Source: Paramuribaculum sp. (GTDB lineage: Bacteria > Bacteroidota > Bacteroidia > Bacteroidales > Muribaculaceae). Taken from it: a stretch of 5,879 nt of DNA. How positions within the stretch are numbered: position 1 is the first letter of the stretch; the number at the start of each line of letters is the position of its first letter. The translations under genes were made by a program, and so were the position numbers. Shown here piece by piece: positions 1 through 5,879 of the stretch. The stretch lies in the NCBI GenBank assembly GCA_029062075.1, contig JAIDQW010000100.1, positions 1 to 5,879 of the forward strand. Direction: 5' to 3'. The notes beneath the pieces are model-generated. The model was not told where the DNA came from. It saw only the letters and a list, made by a program, of their open reading frames with translations, and ran no database searches.

Positions 1-52
1 GCATCCCCTCACCAGAAGGAGAGAGGAGTATGAGCTATTCCATAATCAAAGT

Positions 53-86
53 TTTGCACTTCGATTTGGAATCTTCAGTACCTTTG
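53..86 (+). promoter_or_regulatory. Putative Bacteroidetes promoter ahead of the SMR remnant
   Basis: A TTTG box (53-56) and a perfect TAnnTTTG box, TACCTTTG (79-86), are separated by 22 bp, slightly more than the usual 19-21. Transcription would start near 92-95, leaving a leader of about 54 nt with an AGAAGGAGA stretch before the ATG at 147. This promoter lies downstream of an earlier in-frame ATG at 30. That argues the ATG at 147, which begins the recognisable SMR protein, is the true ancestral start. Confidence 0.45.
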
Positions 87-146
87 CAATGTCTTAGAAG
101 GAGACGACGGAAATTTCTGCAGCCCTCAAATAGACTCTTCATACTT

Positions 147-218
147 ATGAACTGGATAATTCTTATTCTTGCCGGGTTGATGGAAGTGGCGTTCACATTC
201 TGCCTTGGTAAAACTAAA
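147..218 (+). pseudogene. 5' remnant of an SMR-family (EmrE/SugE-like) small multidrug transporter
   Basis: The first 24 codons read MNWIILILAGLMEVAFTFCL and then GKTK. This is the typical first transmembrane helix of small multidrug resistance proteins and includes the membrane-embedded Glu (residue 13 here, equivalent to Glu14 of EmrE) that binds cation and proton. SMR proteins have about 105 residues and four helices. Helices 2-4 are missing, and the frame runs directly into an unrelated flavoprotein segment at about 219. An intact relative would export quaternary ammonium compounds or guanidinium as a dimer in the inner membrane; this fragment cannot. The start at 147 is preferred over the in-frame ATG at 30 because family similarity begins there and a promoter-like site lies between the two. 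The frame is open upstream to the window edge, but residues encoded before 147 are Arg-rich and match nothing I recognise. Confidence 0.7.
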
Positions 219-425
219 GTAATTGTATTCGGTAGGGCACGATTCGTGGTGGATGAAAAAGAAAAGATTGACGCTTTGCAGAAACTCTCTGAAAAATATA
301 GTGATGGTATAGACCCCACTGTTGAAATTAACAAATTCCTTAAGGTTGTTACTGTCATTGAAATCACAATTGACGGCGTTACCGGCAAAGAAGCTATAGA
401 ATTGACACGGAACCGTACTATATAA
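219..425 (+). pseudogene. 3' remnant of a NimA-like pyridoxamine 5'-phosphate oxidase-fold flavoprotein
   Basis: These 68 codons, from VIVFGRARFVVDEKEK to VIEITIDGVTGKEAIEL, match the C-terminal part of the PNPOx-like flavin-nucleotide-binding family that includes NimA-type proteins. Visible family features are the VxVFGxAxxVxDxxEK strand-turn-helix, a LSEKYS-like helix end, and the closing VIEITIxxxTGKEAIEL strand. Complete members are roughly 150-170 residues. The N-terminal half, with most of the FMN-binding barrel and the segment just before VIVFG, is absent. The segment continues in frame from the SMR remnant, so the ORF 147-425 would encode a 92-residue chimera, most likely non-functional. 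Its stop falls inside an inverted repeat where the opposite-strand response-regulator remnant ends. Confidence 0.7.
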
Positions 426-439
426 GCAATCGGCTTATA
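421..439. repeat. 7-bp inverted repeat at the junction of two gene remnants
   Basis: TATAAGC (421-427) and GCTTATA (433-439) are perfect inverted copies around a 5-nt loop. They coincide with the point where the flavoprotein remnant (ending 425, plus strand) meets the response-regulator remnant (514 to about 425, minus strand). There is no T-run, so it does not look like a terminator. It may be chance, or it may mark the recombination point. Confidence 0.4.
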
Positions 440-514
440 GCCGTGCTTAACAAGCAAGCTCGACATAAGCCGACGGTCAGATTCGGAGGCATCAACTATG
501 ATTACCTTGTTCAT
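425..514 (-). pseudogene. N-terminal remnant of a response regulator (receiver domain)
   Basis: The reading frame opens with MNKVIIVDASESDRRLMSSL and continues LVKHGYKPIA. This is the first beta strand, acidic turn (Asp8) and first helix of a CheY-like receiver, of a type I associate with Bacteroidales response regulators. After about 30 codons the similarity stops. The frame stays open to position 35 only because it reads antisense through the flavoprotein and SMR remnants. The phosphoacceptor Asp (expected near residue 50-55), the rest of the receiver and any output domain are missing. Its ATG lies 10 nt after the stop of the MFS pump gene on the same strand, with an A-rich AAAAAAG just before it. 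It may therefore once have been the next gene of, or directly after, the efflux operon. Confidence 0.6.
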
Positions 515-524
515 CTTTTTTGTT

Positions 525-2177
525 TTACTTTTTGATTATTATGGTGTTTACATCTGTATTGTTTTTTAATTGAAGTTCTTGATATTCTTTATTAGTTCTT
601 ACCAAGTGCTTGATAACTCGGCGTACTGTGCTCCATTTCGGGAAGATTGCAAATGGTCTTACAGAACTATAGCTGAGAAGAATTATAGCGAGTGAAGAGA
701 GTGCCAAGATCATTAGCAAGCCGAATATTTCTTTCATGGATACGACCAATGCCTGTGTCTGCACCATTCCATAAAGTGGTCCCAGTGGGGCGTAGGCTAT
801 GTCGGGATTGGTATTCACTATGTTCGCTCCAAGCAAGGAGGCATTTTTCGCCATAGTATGACGCAAGAACTCGCCGATTATCGCCGGTCCGAGTGTTGCA
901 CCCATCACAGCACCGGTAAAACCGTTTATCGTCAAAGCCTGCGGAAATACCTGAAAAGGCAATCCGCTTTGCACTATCGATGTCAGGAACACAATTGAGA
1001 TTATCACCGCTGCCGCCCCTCTGAAAAAGAGAGGAATGAAAAGCATTTCTTTCTCAATGCCGTAATCTATGAAGAAATAAAAATATCCAAGATATACAAT
1101 TGCGAGAGAAAATGCTATCGCAGTCATCGTCTTATATCTCCATTTTCGTAAGGCGAAGGTGTAGTATGTGAATGCACATCCGGCAATTATGCCGGTAAAC
1201 ACATACCAGTTGAGGTCTATGAGGTTTGTCTCGTCAAAACCGAGAATATTCGCGGCATAGCTGTGTTCAAAAACATGTTCAGTAGCTATGAGCGTGAAGA
1301 AAACAAGATACACGCAGGTGGCACGAATTACATTGCGGTTCTTCATTGCCCGGAAGCTAATATATGGATGATGCAAGAATGATGCTCGCCAGAGATTTAC
1401 ACAGAGACAGGCAAGTCCTATAAGAGCCGCCCCCCTTATCTCTACAGCATCCCACCAATCGAAATAGTTACCATATACGCAGATGAATGTAAAGCACATC
1501 ATAAATCCGGCCCACAGTATTGCTCCGATCCAGTCAATACCGAGCAGAGGAATGTACATTGGTCCGCGCACGGGTTTAACAAGTATAAGTACCATCACCA
1601 TCATCAATGCGAGCAATCCTATCATTATCCAGTGCATATATTCCCATTGGGAGAAAAATGCCGTATATATTGTAGCGATTCCGCTCAACTGTATGACGCT
1701 GTCGACTATCAGATAGACGTAGCAGAAGAAAATCGCCATATCCCTGACTGGAGTAAGCCAAAGCTGGATAGTGGAATTGCACGCGAGTGTTGCCTGCATA
1801 CGAAACCATCCAGCGACAAAGCATGTAATTACAAGCACCGGAACTGACGTAGTGTTGGCGCAGATCAGATTAGCTGCTATAAGAATTATAGCCGACACAA
1901 GTAGTTGAGTACGAGTGGAGAAGCGGAACTTGATGCGGAACATCACCGCAAAGTTTATTGCCAAACCTATGAGGGAAGCGTAGCCAGCCATAAGTATATC
2001 CTCCTGTATCAGTGCCGTAGTTCCGACCATATCGGTTGCGGCGGCGAGGTACACGCCACCTGAAAACTGCACTATCAGTACGAAGAATATAAATATATAT
2101 GGCTTCAACCGTCTTGGGATGAAATTCGGGACTTCCGGTATGTCAAAAGGTCCCGACGGTGCATGCCAGTCTGCCAT
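525..2177 (-). CDS. MFS drug efflux transporter, DHA2/EmrB-like, 14 transmembrane helices
   Basis: This 550-residue integral inner-membrane protein should be the proton-driven pump of a tripartite exporter. Hydrophobic segments lie near residues 27-48, 60-82, 91-107, 112-132, 146-170, 181-200, 212-235, 247-265, 285-303, 323-343, 348-370, 376-402, 415-437 and 482-503. Fourteen helices is the DHA2 count. The GIDWIGAILW stretch (213-222) after a basic loop and ATLGPAIIGEFL (427-438) also resemble EmrB relatives. The usual MFS motif A between helices 2 and 3 is not recognisable; the loop there reads FRIKFRFSTRT (80-90). Motif C is also unclear, so this is a divergent Bacteroidetes-type branch and the substrate cannot be predicted. 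The tail (from about 505) is basic and cytoplasmic. The ATG is 1 nt after the adaptor stop, indicating translational coupling. No terminator is visible after the gene; a response-regulator remnant starts 10 nt later. Confidence 0.88.
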   Translation of the reverse strand: MADWHAPSGPFDIPEVPNFIPRRLKPYIFIFFVLIVQFSGGVYLAAATDMVGTTALIQEDILMAGYASLIGLAINFAVMFRIKFRFSTRTQLLVSAIILIAANLICANTTSVPVLVITCFVAGWFRMQATLACNSTIQLWLTPVRDMAIFFCYVYLIVDSVIQLSGIATIYTAFFSQWEYMHWIMIGLLALMMVMVLILVKPVRGPMYIPLLGIDWIGAILWAGFMMCFTFICVYGNYFDWWDAVEIRGAALIGLACLCVNLWRASFLHHPYISFRAMKNRNVIRATCVYLVFFTLIATEHVFEHSYAANILGFDETNLIDLNWYVFTGIIAGCAFTYYTFALRKWRYKTMTAIAFSLAIVYLGYFYFFIDYGIEKEMLFIPLFFRGAAAVIISIVFLTSIVQSGLPFQVFPQALTINGFTGAVMGATLGPAIIGEFLRHTMAKNASLLGANIVNTNPDIAYAPLGPLYGMVQTQALVVSMKEIFGLLMILALSSLAIILLSYSSVRPFAIFPKWSTVRRVIKHLVRTNKEYQELQLKNNTDVNTIIIKK

Positions 2178-2178
2178 A

Positions 2179-3213
2179 TCAATACTTCACACTACATTCC
2201 ACATTCATTCCGGCACGCAGCTTGGCCATATCCTCAGGCTTGTTGTCGGCACTGAATTCAATTCTGACCGGTACTCGCTGCCTTACTTTCACAAAATTAC
2301 CTGCCGAATTGTCTTGTGGCAATAATGACAGCGATGCGCCCGTGGCAGTTGAAATGGATTTTACCTTGCCGCTGAATGTCACTCCGGGAATAGCATCCAC
2401 CTTAATCTCGACATTGCTGCCCGGCTCAATGTGACGGAGTTGAGTTTCTTTGTAATTAGCTGTAATCCAAATATCCTGTGAGTCAACAATGTCAAGTAGG
2501 GTCTGACCGGGCTGTACGAGTTGACCTACCTGAATCTCCTTGCGTGAAGTGAAGCCATCGCAAGGAGCTGTAATCACCGTATAGCTGAGGTTCAGTTCCG
2601 CTGTCTCAAGCAATGCCTTCGCCAGTTCTATACCGGCTTCCGACTGTGATATGCGCTGACGACTTACATCTACAACAGTCGATGTTGCAGAACGTTGACG
2701 TGACAGCATCTCATAACGTGCTTTTTTTGCTTCATAATCGGTTTTTGCACCATCATATTGCTGACGGGTCACAGCATCTTGAGATAGAAGTTTCTCATAT
2801 CGAGCTAAATCAGTGGCTGCCATTTCCATCACAACCTTTGCTTCAGCGATTGAAGCCTCACTAACGGCTACATTGGCTGAAGCCGAGGTTGCCGAGCGGT
2901 CGGCGACATCACGTCCTGCAAGGGCATTCTGATAATCCGCCTGTGCACGCACCACGTTGAGACGCATATCGGCATCGTCTATTATGACGAGTGTATCACC
3001 CTTTTTCACGGGTTCATACTCGTTGAAACGGATTTCCTTGATATAGCCCTGTACACGGCTGTTTACCGGCACTATCTGCTGTCGCACCTGCGCGTTATCA
3101 GTAAACTCGACATTTCCAAGGTGTATGAACCGAGAGCCGACCCAGATAGCAGCTGCGGCAATTACTACGATTGTGATTATATAGGAGAGTATCTTTTTAC
3201 TGTGATGTTTCAT
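2179..3213 (-). CDS. emrA: Periplasmic adaptor (membrane fusion) protein, EmrA/HlyD family
   Basis: This 344-residue adaptor should link the inner-membrane MFS pump to the TolC-type channel. A short basic cytoplasmic N-terminus is followed by one membrane anchor (about 9-26). Then comes FTDNAQV (37-43), a variant of the TDDAYV motif typical of EmrA proteins. The first lipoyl half is near 47-80 (VQGYIKEI, VKKGDTLVIID). An Ala/Gln/Glu-rich alpha-helical hairpin, probably coiled coil, spans about 85-210. The second lipoyl half is at 215-245 (APCDGFTS, VGQLVQPGQTLLDI). The beta-barrel region (247-320) includes ATGASLSLLPQDNSAGNFVK followed by VRQRVPVRI, a hallmark of EmrA-type adaptors that pair with DHA2 pumps. 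Length is slightly below E. coli EmrA (about 390). The start overlaps the upstream channel-gene stop as ATGA. The anchor and partner genes argue against an RND- or ABC-type adaptor role. Confidence 0.92.
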   Translation of the reverse strand: MKHHSKKILSYIITIVVIAAAAIWVGSRFIHLGNVEFTDNAQVRQQIVPVNSRVQGYIKEIRFNEYEPVKKGDTLVIIDDADMRLNVVRAQADYQNALAGRDVADRSATSASANVAVSEASIAEAKVVMEMAATDLARYEKLLSQDAVTRQQYDGAKTDYEAKKARYEMLSRQRSATSTVVDVSRQRISQSEAGIELAKALLETAELNLSYTVITAPCDGFTSRKEIQVGQLVQPGQTLLDIVDSQDIWITANYKETQLRHIEPGSNVEIKVDAIPGVTFSGKVKSISTATGASLSLLPQDNSAGNFVKVRQRVPVRIEFSADNKPEDMAKLRAGMNVECSVKY

Positions 3214-4523
3214 ATCTTTCCGGTTGTGAACAAGAGTTTGTAATAATAGTAAATGGTGTTTATACGGGCGTTTACGAGTTGCTGTTCCGCTTCCAGTTTT
3301 GAATTGGCGGCATCAAGCATATCCGTAATAAGAGCCATATCGGCGGAATAACGAGTTGAGATGGTTCTATAGTTACGTTCTGCGAGTTCCACACTTTTCT
3401 GTTGTGTCTTCAGCTCCTCGTATGCTTCAAGATAACGGATGTGATCGGAGTTGACAGCCAGTGACACTTCCTCGCGTGTAGCTTCGAGTTGTTCGAGGGC
3501 TTTCTGTGGCGCCACACGACTCTTGGATAGAGCCTTATTATTTTTGTAAAGGGATGAAATGTTATAGCTTATGCCGACCCCGACAAACCAGTAACTTAGA
3601 TTACGGTTGATCGGAGGAACCTCAACAAGAATAGGTCCGTCTATACTCCATCCTGCCTGCAATCCTATCTTCGGAAGACGTTCCGACCGCACAAGCGATT
3701 CCGCCTTCCGGCTTATATCGACCCCTGATCGCGCGAGATTAAGCGATGGAGAGTTTGCATCAGCCTCATTCTGCCACCACGCGATGCCTTCATTCGGCAA
3801 TGAGCGTGTAAGAATTGTACTGTCAGGGACGATTATAGTGCCGTCAGGAAGTCCGGCAGTTGTGACGAGATTGGTATTTAGAATATCAATTGTATTGTTG
3901 ATCCTTACGAGTTGCAGCTCAAGATTGGAAACAAGGAGTTCATATCTTGTGATGTCATTCCGAAGTGCCGTACCCTGCTCAAACCTCGCTCTCATTTGCT
4001 GAAGTACCTTTTGAGCGGCTGCGATGTTTCCTTCTACTACACGTCTCAAATTATTGTACTTGTAGATGTCAAGGTAAAAACCGGTAAGCTGGAATCGGAT
4101 ATTGTCACGTTGGAAATCCGTGGCAAATCTTGCGGATGTAGATTTCAGTTCGGCAAGTTGAATGGTAGTCGTCACCGCGCCACCGGTATAAACCGGTTGG
4201 GAGATGTTGATGGATAGAGCGTTTCCGAAATGCGGAATCGGAGCCTTTTGATAATCACTGAAATTTCTTTTGGTGGTAAAACCGTCTCCAATATAACTAA
4301 ATGATAGAGAGGTGTTGATGTCGGGAAGACGACCTGAACGGGCAACGCTGATTTCCCGTTCAGCCTCAGTCTGGGCGGTGATGGAAGGACGGAGTTGCGC
4401 GCTATTGGCTTCAGCGGCTTCAAAAATATCTTCAAGGGTTACAACCGATTGACCGTAAGCACACACTCCACCGCTCGACAGAACCATCGTCAGAAGTCCT
4501 GTGAGCAATCGAAGATTGTTCAT
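3210..4523 (-). CDS. TolC-family outer-membrane efflux channel
   Basis: This 437-residue protein should form the trimeric outer-membrane and periplasmic tunnel through which the adaptor-pump pair exports substrate. The N-terminus is a signal peptide: MNNLR, a hydrophobic core to about residue 19, then CAYGQ with likely cleavage near 22-25. Cys21 is not in a proper lipobox (preceded by GGV). Two outer-membrane-factor repeats are visible. The first runs about 27-240, with ISQPVYTGGAV (107-117) at the beta-strand/helix border and the RFEQGTALRNDITRYE helix (180-195). The second runs about 255-437, starting with the RLPKIGLQAGW strand (282-292) and ending in MALITDMLDAANSKLEAE and a Tyr-rich helix. 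Length is normal for Bacteroidetes members. It is the first gene of the operon, preceded by a 34-codon leader ORF ending 60 nt upstream, and its TGA overlaps the adaptor ATG. The region before the ATG is A/T-rich without a clear Shine-Dalgarno. Confidence 0.92.
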   Translation of the reverse strand: MNNLRLLTGLLTMVLSSGGVCAYGQSVVTLEDIFEAAEANSAQLRPSITAQTEAEREISVARSGRLPDINTSLSFSYIGDGFTTKRNFSDYQKAPIPHFGNALSINISQPVYTGGAVTTTIQLAELKSTSARFATDFQRDNIRFQLTGFYLDIYKYNNLRRVVEGNIAAAQKVLQQMRARFEQGTALRNDITRYELLVSNLELQLVRINNTIDILNTNLVTTAGLPDGTIIVPDSTILTRSLPNEGIAWWQNEADANSPSLNLARSGVDISRKAESLVRSERLPKIGLQAGWSIDGPILVEVPPINRNLSYWFVGVGISYNISSLYKNNKALSKSRVAPQKALEQLEATREEVSLAVNSDHIRYLEAYEELKTQQKSVELAERNYRTISTRYSADMALITDMLDAANSKLEAEQQLVNARINTIYYYYKLLFTTGKI

Positions 4524-4583
4524 AATAAGATTTTTAGAATTTTTTTGGGTGATTTTTAGTCTATATGACTGATAGAGGATTGT

Positions 4584-4688
4584 TTATATACAAGCCTGAA
4601 CCGGAGCGGTGCTTTTCCAGTTTTCAAGATACCCCCAGTTGGTCACTCTCGGGGATGATGTTTCATTCTTTCCTAATATTTGATTCAT
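4584..4688 (-). CDS. Putative 34-residue leader peptide of the efflux operon
   Basis: A complete small ORF begins about 24 nt after the predicted transcription start and ends 60 nt before the channel-gene ATG. It opens MNQILGKNETSSPRV and closes LENWKSTAPVQACI. There is no signal peptide or membrane segment. Two Asn-Trp pairs (17-18 and 23-24, both AAC TGG) and a Pro-containing end (TAPVQACI) recall leader peptides whose stalled translation controls a downstream gene. The other two minus-strand frames have in-frame stops across this stretch, so this is the only complete open frame here. Several RNA hairpins overlap it. I have an impression of similar peptides in other Bacteroidetes genomes but cannot verify it. 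Inference: translation status, perhaps drug-impaired, adjusts expression of the exporter. Alternatively the conserved element could be the RNA fold rather than the peptide. Confidence 0.5.
   Translation of the reverse strand: MNQILGKNETSSPRVTNWGYLENWKSTAPVQACI
4599..4656 (-). promoter_or_regulatory. Candidate attenuator-like RNA structures in the operon leader
   Basis: In the minus-strand RNA, ATCCCC (4656-4651) can pair with GGGGGT (4636-4631), with an inner AGT/ACT stem. Downstream, ACCG (4610-4607) pairs with CGGT (4603-4600) around a CTC loop. In competition, CCGGTT (4604-4599) can pair with either of two AACTGG copies (4640-4635 and 4622-4617), which encode the two Asn-Trp pairs. No T-run follows, so control, if any, would act on translation or RNA stability rather than by intrinsic termination. 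Confidence 0.35.
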
Positions 4689-4717
4689 TTAGAAGCAACT
4701 CTTTGTGAATTGCACTA

Positions 4718-4748
4718 CAAAGTTACAAAGAATTAATCTAATTGCATA
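4718..4748 (-). promoter_or_regulatory. Promoter of the efflux operon
   Basis: On the minus strand a perfect TAnnTTTG box, TAACTTTG (4725-4718), has TATG (4748-4745) 19 bp upstream, or TTTA 21 bp upstream, as an imperfect TTTG box. Transcription should start near 4712. This gives about 24 nt before the leader ORF and about 190 nt before the channel gene. Confidence 0.6.
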
Positions 4749-4873
4749 AAAAAAACTGTGTCAAGAAAATCACAGAACTGCTATATATTTGATTATTACA
4801 CGAATTCAATCGTTGATACAGAAAAACAATAGAAAGACAAAGCATTGAAGCCTGATCTGTCTATTTAGGATTG
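4749..4873. other. A/T-rich intergenic DNA with no recognisable gene
   Basis: The stretch upstream of the efflux promoter contains no convincing ORF, repeat or second promoter that I can see. No divergent regulator gene is present. Decayed coding remnants begin at about 4874 and run towards the tRNA gene. Confidence 0.5.
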
Positions 4874-5135
4874 TCAGATACCGGAATGTCGAGCCGGAAA
4901 ACGCGGCGCACTTGCCGACATTGGATAACGGGGCTGAGGTTCGGCAACCATCGAGGGCTTATATCCCTGCGGAGTGTCGGTTGTATGGACATTTACGGTA
5001 TTTACTGTTGTTTCTGCGTTGCCCTCTGTACGGGGCTTATTGGGTTTGCTCCTGCTTATTCTCCGTACCGTAATTCTCATCGTGCTTGGGGGCAAGTTCA
5101 GTCGTAATCTTGCGGTCGAGGGCGGCAAGTTCGGA
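4874..5135 (-). pseudogene. Decayed C-terminal tail of a large protein, possibly from a conjugative element
   Basis: After a stop at 5138-5136, the frame reads SELAALDRKITTELAPKHDE and continues with Asn, Glu, Gln-rich sequence to a TAA at 5039-5037. A second minus-strand frame, shifted by one base around 5040-5060, continues with similar low-complexity Thr/Asn/Pro-rich sequence (for example GYKPSMVAEPQPRYP) to a TGA at 4876-4874. Together they look like one charged, disordered tail broken by a frameshift. The ELAALDRKI-ELAP pattern reminds me of tails of large proteins on Bacteroidales integrative conjugative elements, but I cannot name the family. There is no start codon or upstream domain. 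It is more GC-rich than its surroundings, as expected for imported DNA. Confidence 0.4.
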
Positions 5136-5154
5136 TTAGAGCATAACAATTCAG

Positions 5155-5185
5155 GACAATGCCGCTATTCATTAACGGCATTGTC
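5155..5185. repeat. 10-bp perfect hairpin between two coding remnants
   Basis: GACAATGCCG (5155-5164) and CGGCATTGTC (5176-5185) form a perfect 10-bp stem around an 11-nt loop. On the minus strand it lies about 30 nt after the stop of the remnant ending at 5217, the position of a terminator, but no clear T-run follows on either strand. It may be a terminator of the former element or an inverted repeat from it. Confidence 0.5.
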
Positions 5186-5216
5186 TGTTGGAATATTCTT
5201 TTCATTGGTTATGGGA

Positions 5217-5299
5217 CTACATATCTTCCTCGAAAGTGTATCCGTTTGACTTGAAGAACTGTTCGAGGATGTAGTTGATCACGTCGCGGACACAGCACG
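5217..5299 (-). pseudogene. C-terminal gene remnant of unknown family
   Basis: A minus-strand frame reads CCVRDVINYILEQFFKSNGY followed by TFEEDM and a TAG stop at 5219-5217. The composition and amphipathic helix look like a real protein end. The same frame is interrupted by a TAG about 35 nt further upstream (near 5332), and no start codon or recognisable domain is present. I do not recognise the family. Its position beside the tRNA-Lys 3' end, with another remnant following, suggests debris of an integrated element. It could also be a chance frame. Confidence 0.35.
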
Positions 5300-5357
5300 G
5301 TTGGCGTTGAGTTGACAGAAATTGCTAAACGCTGGTAAACAGTCGCTTGCGGACACG

Positions 5358-5393
5358 AAAAAAGGCCACAAATCCTTGTCGAATTTGTGACCC
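5358..5393 (-). terminator. Intrinsic terminator of tRNA-Lys
   Basis: On the minus strand, ATTTGTG pairs with CACAAAT (positions 5367-5373 and 5383-5389; 7 bp, 9-nt loop). The stem is extended by two G-C pairs beyond one mismatch (5364-5365 with 5391-5392). It is followed at once by six T (5363-5358). It lies 6 nt after the mature tRNA 3' end. Confidence 0.75.
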
Positions 5394-5398
5394 TTGTG

Positions 5399-5471
5399 TG
5401 ATCCGCCTGGGGCTCGAACCCAGGACCCCAACATTAAAAGTGTTGTGCTCTACCAGCTGAGCTAGCGAATC
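5399..5471 (-). tRNA. tRNA-Lys (anticodon TTT)
   Basis: A complete 73-nt cloverleaf is visible. The acceptor stem is GATTCGC/GCGGATC with one T-G wobble. The D arm is GCTC/GAGC, the anticodon stem CAACA/TGTTG with loop CTTTTAA, the variable loop 5 nt, and the T arm CTGGG-TTCGAGC-CCCAG. The discriminator is A and CCA is not encoded. The anticodon TTT reads AAA and AAG. It has its own promoter and terminator, and its 3' end borders decayed element-like sequence. Confidence 0.97.
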
Positions 5472-5489
5472 TCCTTTTCAAAAGCGTTG

Positions 5490-5521
5490 CAAAGGTATGG
5501 AGTTTTTTTTATTCTGCCAAA
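5490..5521 (-). promoter_or_regulatory. Consensus promoter of tRNA-Lys
   Basis: On the minus strand TTTG (5521-5518), a 20-bp spacer and TACCTTTG (5497-5490) match the Bacteroidetes TTTG/TAnnTTTG promoter perfectly. The start point should be near 5484, about 13 nt before the tRNA 5' end. Confidence 0.85.
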
Positions 5522-5587
5522 TATTCGGGTGTTATTTTTTTAGTAAAAATGTTGTTAATTCTTTTAGTTGGTTGATAATCAGGAATG

Positions 5588-5616
5588 GAGCAAGCTGAAT
5601 TCAACTTTTGTTGCTC
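5588..5616 (+). repeat. Stem-loop upstream of the 28-codon ORF
   Basis: GAGCAA (5588-5593) pairs with TTGCTC (5611-5616). The loop contains an imperfect palindrome centred on GAATTC, so a longer nested hairpin is possible. A T-rich tract (TATATTGTTTTT) follows, so it could be a weak terminator or a leader structure for the ORF at 5650. Confidence 0.35.
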
Positions 5617-5649
5617 TATATTGTTTTTAATTACAAAAGGTATATTATA

Positions 5650-5736
5650 ATGAAACATTTATTTAAGAAGCTTGTAGGGTGGTTCTCAGAAGGGGCTTCA
5701 ATAGCTTTTGGAGGAGAAGATCACCATTTACGCTAA
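5650..5736 (+). CDS. Putative 28-residue amphipathic peptide
   Basis: The ORF begins MKHLFKKLVGWFSEGASIAF and ends GGEDHHLR. Residues Leu4, Phe5, Leu8, Val9, Trp11/Phe12, Ala16, Ala19 and Phe20 can form one hydrophobic helix face, with Lys2, Lys6 and Lys7 on the other. A membrane-surface helix with an acidic, His-containing tail is therefore plausible. There is no signal peptide. A weak AAAAGG lies about 10 nt before the ATG, and I found no consensus promoter. An intrinsic terminator begins 7 nt after the stop, which supports a dedicated short transcript. I do not recognise the family. It could be a microprotein, a type I toxin-like peptide, or a chance ORF inside a small RNA. Confidence 0.4.
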   Translation: MKHLFKKLVGWFSEGASIAFGGEDHHLR

Positions 5737-5743
5737 TGATTGT

Positions 5744-5774
5744 AAAGTACTCGTAAAAGCGGGCACTTTTTTTT
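5744..5774 (+). terminator. Intrinsic terminator after the 28-codon ORF
   Basis: AAAGT (5744-5748) pairs with ACTTT (5765-5769), and CTCG (5750-5753) with CGGG (5760-5763), with one A/C mismatch between and a TAAAAG loop. The stem runs into eight T (5767-5774). This is a convincing plus-strand terminator and implies a transcript arriving from the left. Confidence 0.75.
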
Positions 5775-5781
5775 GTTTCTT

Positions 5782-5813
5782 TTTGGGAGTTGAGTTATTT
5801 AGTGGTAATTTTG
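5782..5813 (+). promoter_or_regulatory. Consensus promoter pointing out of the right edge
   Basis: TTTG (5782-5785), a 20-bp spacer and TAATTTTG (5806-5813) fit the Bacteroidetes promoter pattern exactly. Transcription would start near 5818. No convincing gene start is seen in the remaining 60 bases, so its gene presumably lies beyond the window. Confidence 0.6.
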
Positions 5814-5879
5814 TGATGTATTATTCGTGCTATGGTATGAATAATATTATATGTAATAGAGTATCATTTAACTAAATAC

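Follow-up and report, generated by a model that had tools for sequence, protein, structure and literature searches.

A conserved candidate arrest leader peptide between the promoter and a tripartite efflux operon in Muribaculaceae

A stretch of 5,879 nucleotides from Paramuribaculum sp. (order Bacteroidales, family Muribaculaceae; GenBank assembly GCA_029062075.1, contig JAIDQW010000100.1, positions 1 to 5,879), referred to here as the window, encodes a tripartite efflux pump on its minus strand. Between the promoter of this operon and its first gene, a tolC-type outer membrane factor, lies a short open reading frame (ORF) of 34 codons. The best joint explanation of this arrangement is a self-arresting leader peptide that likely raises pump expression through translational control of tolC, a reading to which we assign a probability of roughly 0.55. 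Its parts differ in strength. Sequence conservation makes a translated regulatory leader highly probable, and ribosome arrest by the leader peptide appears likely on the same comparative grounds. Control of tolC initiation, as the specific output in this model, stands at about even odds. The leader represents a new family of probable arrest-type leaders for tripartite major facilitator superfamily (MFS) pumps.

A short leader ORF with a conserved core

The leader ORF occupies positions 4584..4688 (-), with an ATG start, 34 codons and a TAA stop, and encodes MNQILGKNETSSPRVTNWGYLENWKSTAPVQACI. Its end lies 60 nt from the tolC ATG (4523), and two AAC-TGG pairs occur at codons 17-18 and 23-24. 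An earlier sequence-only reading had described a complete minus-strand ORF of this kind before a TolC-type gene, which is borne out. Its length alone does not exceed chance expectation, as 71 ORFs of at least 25 codons are present in the window. The ORF is thus taken as real because it is conserved, not because it is long. Neither Pfam nor NCBIfam contains a match to the peptide.

Conservation centers on codons 17-29 (4602..4640, -), the predicted arrest motif NWGYLENWKSTAP. The consensus N-W-G-[YF]-L-E-N-W-K-S-T-A-[PS] recurs with synonymous changes upstream of orthologous TolC-EmrA-EmrB-like operons. The arrangement is that of an arrest leader, namely a short ORF between promoter and operon that is conserved at the peptide level. 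Residues were counted in 117 unique leaders, 78 from GTDB contigs or the window and 39 from family genomes. The motif used for counting fixes part of the core, and the 78 pattern-scan or window loci also had Asp/Asn, Trp, and Gly preset. At the partly fixed positions, Glu and Trp each occur in 117, Lys in 116, Ser in 115, and Thr in 116 of the 117 leaders. Positions free of the counting motif show Asn17 in 108, an aromatic residue at 18 in 115, Gly or Ala at 19 in 116, and Ala or Gln at 28 in 112. Beneath these residues the codons vary, and all four Gly, all four Thr, both Lys, and both Glu codons occur in the core; the 30 best loci of the family search described below display the same variety with unchanged residues. 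Codon choice in the core is not neutral, however, with AGC or AGT at Ser26 in 115/115, CTT or CTC at Leu21 in 75/82, and GCT at Ala28 in 59/94.

In 89 of the 117 leaders the KST motif has its Thr at residue 27, and the stop codon falls 1 to 18 residues past this Thr. The first 16 residues drift, save for a P-x-V tendency ahead of the core (Pro in 68/117, Val or Ile in 107/117). The residue directly after Thr is usually Ala (94 leaders), otherwise Gln (18), Gly (4), or Arg (1). Seventeen of the 18 Gln leaders stop immediately (...KSTQ-stop), and one further leader ends in ...RTTR-stop. The position after Ala/Gln holds Ser in 51, Pro in 31, a stop codon in 18, and Gly in 11 of 117, and an immediate Pro-stop was noted only in one leader (STQP-stop, L163). 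Conservation close to the C terminus, a mostly fixed chain length, and free ends together fit the pattern expected of nascent-chain arrest. The sequence-only reading had stressed the C-terminus of the window peptide as stalling-like. Its leader-peptide interpretation gains from homologues before the same operon and from a core whose changes among close relatives are mostly synonymous. The weight that it placed on the final VQACI does not hold, as this segment is variable whereas NWGYLENWKSTA is conserved.

Linkage of the leader to the pump operon

A six-frame search with the single sequence identified leader matches in 86 of 397 Muribaculaceae genomes (E up to 0.1). All of the 30 best loci contain the core, and all have a tolC start downstream (MNNLRLL, MNNHRLL, or similar); tolC is broken after 72 codons in L019, and its frame is interrupted after 175 in L013. 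A profile of 66 leaders extended the count to 103 of the 397 genomes (104 places, E up to 0.01). A search of the same genomes for tolC gave matches in 154 (E up to 1e-60). The orthologous set consists of 113 tolC matches that are near full length and at least 61% identical. It leaves out matches of at most 46% identity and the partial matches (64-90% identity) in G273, G290, G219, and G158, all four of which have a leader profile match.

In 91 of these 113 cases, a leader profile match lies 59-212 nt upstream of tolC on the same strand, and the 19 weaker profile matches among them, which were read, all contain the core. Among the other 22, 21 were read, and a divergent leader is present in 20 of the 20 fetched together and in G178. 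Examples include QNYAFKENWKSTAG, LNFAFKENWKSTQ-stop, VSYAIMESWKSTAG, and QYAVMENWRTTR-stop. The leader or a divergent form of it thereby accompanies 112 of the 113 orthologous tolC matches. The last one, on contig 16 of G016, is a match without the first 23 residues whose upstream region was unread; a leader and a tolC start are found on another contig of that genome (L253). The sequence-only reading had proposed checking whether homologues lie upstream of TolC/EmrA/MFS operons with synonymous-biased substitutions. Both features were recovered, the first as the 91 profile matches plus 21 divergent leaders and the second in the core among close relatives. The opposite pattern, consisting of operons without the ORF, frameshifts, or an absence of codon-level conservation, was sought and not found in 112 of the 113.

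Thirteen of the 104 leader profile matches are not beside any of the 113 tolC matches. In G313 the tolC gene is broken, and in G393 the leader has no tolC seen downstream. The match in G363 is most likely due to chance, and the one in G030 is an apparently real divergent leader near a contig end. The others are G016 and eight more that were not all read, four of them being the partial-match genomes.

When about 85,000 species genomes were scanned for the core pattern, 82 contigs matched, 80 of which are listed. All 80 record titles denote Bacteroidales except one metagenome-assembled genome labelled Lachnospiraceae. The titles include Bacteroides sp., Bacteroidales, Porphyromonadaceae, Muribaculaceae, Duncaniella, Muribaculum, Paramuribaculum, and Barnesiella, with fewer instances of Bacteroides timonensis, Alistipes sp. 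dk3624, Phocaeicola, Palleniella muris, and Prevotellaceae UBA711. Later tables omit two of these 80 contigs (L112, an apparent repeat of L058, and L089), and L052 was dropped since it is without a start codon. A recognized tolC start lies downstream in 75 of 79 loci, window included, the exceptions being L050, L110, L116, and L121. The 397 family genomes and the GTDB contigs overlap, so the two surveys are not independent. No viral contig contained the leader core (0 found). At the order level, the leader profile search gave just weak matches outside the family (best E 0.0037), several of them with internal stops.

Leaders of the window's kind (class 1) also occur in records labelled Bacteroides timonensis, Alistipes, Phocaeicola, Palleniella, and Prevotellaceae (L084, L089, L102, L080, and L069). 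In L084, L089, and L102 the whole pump operon follows the leader, and the MFS protein is 79-83% identical to that of the window. This identity, together with the presence of the whole operon in differently labelled records, suggests transfer of the leader-pump unit. Two further pairs of loci, L019/L050 and L110/L268, retain the leader with a tolC that is broken (L019) or not found downstream (L110), and are probably decaying copies of the unit.

Promoter and RNA elements around the leader

The leader-pump transcript is preceded by a Bacteroidota-type -7 box, TAACTTTG, at 4718..4725 (-), assigned from its sequence and its recurrence in homologous loci. A consensus of TAnnTTTG for Bacteroidota is quoted in PMC7366714. 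In 115 of 117 loci a TAnnTT[TC][GC] box is found no more than 60 nt ahead of the leader, and in 107 of these 115 it lies 28-30 nt from the leader ATG. The near-consensus promoter named by the sequence-only reading fares less well. A sigma-70-type match, TTGACA-18-TAGATT at 4764-4735, was the 1 found in a scan for which shuffles gave a mean of 1.7, and it was rejected. The case for the TAACTTTG box as the leader-pump promoter, rather than this match, is convincing.

Directly after the box, and ending 6 nt before the leader ATG, a 5' hairpin GCAATTC-ACAAA-GAGTTGC (4695..4713, -) is supported by covariation. The alignment was anchored on the loop and covers 115 of the 117 loci (not L177 and L196), or 110 unique rows. 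Paired cells make up 97.5% of these rows, and 119 cells are changed on both sides. In comparison, 500 column shuffles gave a mean of 84.4% paired and 28.3 two-sided changes, and sliding the register by 1-3 gave 34-51.1% paired, in controls that leave the relatedness among loci in place. The A[CT]AAA loop and the inner pairs are nearly invariant, the outer arms vary, and at one pair T-G is seen more often than any other state (75/109). Because the loop is conserved while the outer arms change, and because T-G is commonest at one pair, the element fits an RNA hairpin better than a DNA operator. The hairpin is not supported as a genome-wide regulon signal: of 11 exact pattern matches in 8 genomes, 5 lie at this operon and 6 elsewhere were left unread, and a backward control pattern gave 1.

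Structure is also present in the spacer that separates the leader from tolC. In the window, a hairpin of -5.5 kcal/mol is predicted over the leader 3' end and stop codon (4571..4602, -), and relatives often have a stronger one. A spacer hairpin is present in 102 of 108 loci, with a median of -9.95 kcal/mol. Over all 108, the spacer folds better than dinucleotide shuffles (mean z -1.82), with 80 loci below -1 and 11 above 0. An intrinsic terminator is not supported, as 11 of the 102 hairpins have at least 6 T in the next 10 nt; a terminator scan of the window gave nothing above shuffles.

The tolC start codon itself is held in a predicted hairpin, UGA-a-CAAUC-uuc-GAUUG-c-UCA (4502..4522, -), which is indicated by frozen codons and by recurrence in leader-bearing paralogues. 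Leu6 of tolC is encoded by TTG in 110/112 and Leu7 by CTC in 112/112, against 9% and 30% of later tolC Leu codons. In paralogous and other-family operons, different letters pair in the same register. There, 6-8 of 9 pairs form in 9 of 10 operons with a leader versus 2 of 30 without a recognized one, in a comparison of related operons that is uncorrected for kinship and sets aside L219 (8 pairs), for which too little upstream sequence was available.

Proposed mechanism and alternative explanations

In the proposed mechanism, the leader ORF would be translated, and a disturbance of the ribosome's tunnel or active site would cause the peptide to arrest the ribosome that is making it. The ribosome would halt with its active site on the Ala/Gln codon or on the next one (Pro, Ser, Gly, or stop). 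The signal may be a small molecule or antibiotic. A chain of about 28 residues would lie largely or wholly inside the tunnel, and for this reason a ribosome-bound signal is favored over force sensing. The stalled ribosome would then change how the structured spacer folds and would promote ribosome entry at tolC, with arrest likely leading to higher pump expression. Initiation at tolC was chosen as the output because its start codon sits in a leader-associated hairpin, not because a switch has been demonstrated.

Several observations weigh against this account. The spacer hairpin is weak in the window, and the start-codon hairpin is without covariation among orthologues, where it hardly varies (98.7% paired, shuffles 98.4%). 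One leader-bearing paralogue, L210, is without the start hairpin in that register, and the leaderless L212 and L222 reach 6-7 pairs. When RNA upstream of the stalled ribosome is removed in a crude fold, predicted access to the tolC start rises only slightly, from a mean of 0.574 to 0.637, and goes up in 70 of 108 loci. Moreover, 11 stretches complementary or nearly complementary to the arms of the start hairpin were tested; none recurs upstream, the most frequent being found in at most 6 loci. Because none of them recurs, a simple erm-like switch with a conserved complement of the start hairpin is unsupported.

The same arrest peptide could instead have a transcriptional output, in which a ribosome stalled at the leader end blocks Rho, as in TnaC. 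A stop codon directly after the core in 17 of the 117 leaders, and in the one ending ...RTTR, agrees with TnaC in this respect (PMC8429421), and the missing intrinsic-terminator tail has no bearing on Rho. The spacer is also C-rich and G-poor (24% C, 15% G). Nine leaderless paralogues, however, show the same imbalance over 100 nt upstream (C/(C+G) 0.63 vs 0.61), so that it provides no evidence of a rut site and a Rho site inferred from this bias was rejected. Blocking of Rho would also leave the start-codon hairpin unexplained, and we regard this output as unlikely, though as the most probable of the alternatives.

A lower probability attaches to the possibility that the ORF is incidental and that the conserved element is RNA or a DNA operator, with the 5' palindrome perhaps bound by a repressor. 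A near-palindrome with compensatory changes does lie beside the promoter, and the non-neutral codons at Ser26 and Leu21 could point in the same direction. Yet synonymous sites vary where residues are fixed, at a mostly constant codon distance from the ATG, and the conserved loop, changing outer arms, and frequent T-G pair of the 5' element are more in keeping with RNA than with a protein site. The window ORFs tested included no recognized regulator gene, in agreement with the sequence-only reading, which had seen none flanking the operon. Taken together, these points render the incidental-ORF explanation improbable.

The ORF could also encode a working small protein, for example an accessory subunit of the pump, as its tight association with one operon might indicate. 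Conservation is confined to about 12 residues, however, while the sequence drifts in the N-terminal half and beyond the core and the stop position moves. Inspection by eye, without a prediction program, shows no membrane-spanning or signal segment, and some paralogous pumps have unrelated leaders at the same place, which makes a functional protein very improbable.

Least probable is amino-acid attenuation through two Trp (or Asn-Trp) codons that sense charged tRNA. Two Trp codons are indeed present in the window leader and in 81 of the 117, but the first is replaced in 36, with Tyr or Phe there in 34, Lys-Ser-Thr is nearly invariant though codon counting would not require it, and the genes downstream encode a pump rather than a biosynthetic pathway. 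In form, too, the leader differs from trpL-type attenuators, having no run of Trp codons and two separated Trp residues.

Comparison with known regulatory leaders

TnaC, of the tnaCAB operon of Escherichia coli, is the nearest known system in form, and toiL is the nearest in proposed logic. As in TnaC, the leaders described here have an aromatic residue followed by an acidic one four places on. The Asp16 of TnaC is not found, because the corresponding position holds Glu in 117/117 leaders (the motif allowed just Glu or Lys), and D16E is reported to abolish TnaC stalling (PMC8429421). The Trp-to-Pro spacing is 11 rather than 12, Pro at the arrest codon next to the stop is not constant, and the core ends in KST[A/Q]. 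TnaC also controls Trp catabolism, whereas a pump lies downstream here.

The toiL upstream ORF of topAI-yjhQ in E. coli is stalled by ribosome-targeting antibiotics and its stalling has been proposed to alter RNA structure around a downstream ribosome-binding site. It differs in its toxin-antitoxin target and in stalling at different positions rather than at one motif (PMC12121999); this comparison was made by description, not by sequence. Arrest peptides of the SecM, MifM, and RAPP types are likewise encoded upstream of the gene that they control (PMC7897499, PMC10987492, PMC12992588). In contrast to these, the present leader shows no signal or transmembrane segment by eye and no RAPP motif, would be too short at about 28 residues to reach the translocon, and does not precede a protein-localization gene.

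Macrolide- and phenicol-inducible systems (erm, mef/mel, msrD, and bmrCD) also place leader peptides before resistance or efflux genes. They are mostly Gram-positive, and mutually exclusive hairpins of the erm type could not be shown here. The cat gene is a further resistance gene with a phenicol-inducible leader peptide. To our knowledge, the leaders described here bear no sequence resemblance to those of erm, mef/mel, msrD, bmrCD, or cat. Within Bacteroidota, short ORFs reminiscent of leader peptides have been noted in long 5' untranslated regions of B. thetaiotaomicron, with a different example, BT_4401 (PMC7366714). In full-text searches of open-licence papers, no description of the present leader was listed.

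Other leader classes and paralogous pumps

Paralogous tolC loci of the family (36-46% identity; at least 33 such matches) present a more diverse picture. Among the 20 fetched, 6 have a class-2 leader (NKLHSFHKWGRSNSN-stop and relatives), 2 have a class-3 leader (YIPYHHNISTNWEN-stop), and 12 have none recognized. Recognition was by eye among ATG-started short ORFs, most of them Trp-filtered, and some loci counted as leaderless hold unclassed small ORFs. A class-2 profile had matches in 9 of 188 genomes of the family, strong ones in 6. Three of the four weak places were read. In G046 and at one site in G028 a leader-like ORF precedes a tolC, but not in G064.

Class 2 (NKIHxFHxWGRSNSN-stop and variants) precedes a paralogous tolC in L199, L201, L203, L206, L208, L210, L220, L254, and L256. 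It is found in the family and in one other family, and the tolC-emrA-MFS order was read in L239, a wider stretch of L199. Class 3 occurs in L198 and L202 as ...SYIYIPYHHNISTNWE[N/M]-stop before a paralogous tolC, with a 5' hairpin of its own, GAAGA-GCACAAAGT-TCTTC. The gene order of the window's operon recurs in both of the paralogous operons that were read completely.

In a survey of 218 genomes at the order level, 21 tolC matches came from 17 genomes other than that of the window, and all upstream regions were read. Two of these regions, both from families other than the window's, have a leader, namely L218 (clearly class 1, ...HSCMEKWKSTGHIE) and L220 (class 2). In three leaderless paralogous operons (L214, L235, and L236) a MarR-like ORF lies upstream of tolC, two of them confirmed by Pfam, as if leader and MarR repressor replaced each other. 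A broader hypothesis, which we offer tentatively and at somewhat less than even odds, is that a superfamily of Bacteroidales tripartite MFS pumps is run by diversified arrest leaders. Each pump clade would have its own tunnel-reading peptide (WKST[A/Q], HxWGRSNSN-stop, or NISTNWEN-stop), set between a 5' hairpin of a common type and a start-codon hairpin. With the ribosome itself as the drug sensor, different clades would respond to different inhibitors, and the leaders would take the place of the MarR regulators found in sister operons.

Pump operon and neighboring features

The tolC-type outer membrane factor (3210..4523, -) matches the Pfam family OEP (PF02321, E 8.1e-49). It is followed by an EmrA/HlyD-type periplasmic adaptor (2179..3213, -), which matches PF16576 and TIGR00998 (E 3.1e-71), the latter at 240.1 bits and thus below the curated cut-off of 390.8 bits. 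The third gene (525..2177, -) encodes an EmrB-like MFS inner-membrane pump of 550 residues. This protein alone matches no Pfam or NCBIfam model, and five aligned relatives are also undetected by Pfam. A six-member profile of it, built from orthologues and paralogues, matches the EmrB structures 8zal (E 5.7e-7) and 8zar (E 1.2e-6). An outer membrane factor, an EmrA-like adaptor, and an EmrB-like transporter are thus united in one operon, which is the composition of an EmrAB-TolC-type tripartite MFS pump. Drug export would be its function by homology to EmrA-like adaptors and the EmrB structures.

With the covariance models of Rfam 15, a tRNA at 5399-5471 is the only match in the window at E up to 1, and the leader region matches no known RNA family. 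At the window's other end, a 131-codon ORF at 30-425 (+) converges on the end of the pump operon. Its C-terminal part matches NimABCDEF nitroimidazole reductases (E 1.4e-11, far below the cut-off), which suggests a partial Nim/PNPOx gene located at the edge of the contig.

Implications for efflux control in gut Bacteroidota

Leader-peptide control of drug pumps is best known from Gram-positive bacteria and E. coli. If the regulation proposed here is true, the leader would sense drugs or stress with no need for a regulator protein. Bacteroidota mRNAs are considered to rely little on Shine-Dalgarno sites, and hence the usual model of masking a ribosome-binding site may not apply. Taken with the other leader classes, the pattern looks like family-wide, multi-class leader-peptide control of pumps in gut Bacteroidota. 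Should these peptides arrest ribosomes, they would provide a new set of nascent chains for structural work and ready-made sensors that may reveal what the uncharacterized pumps of this group respond to.
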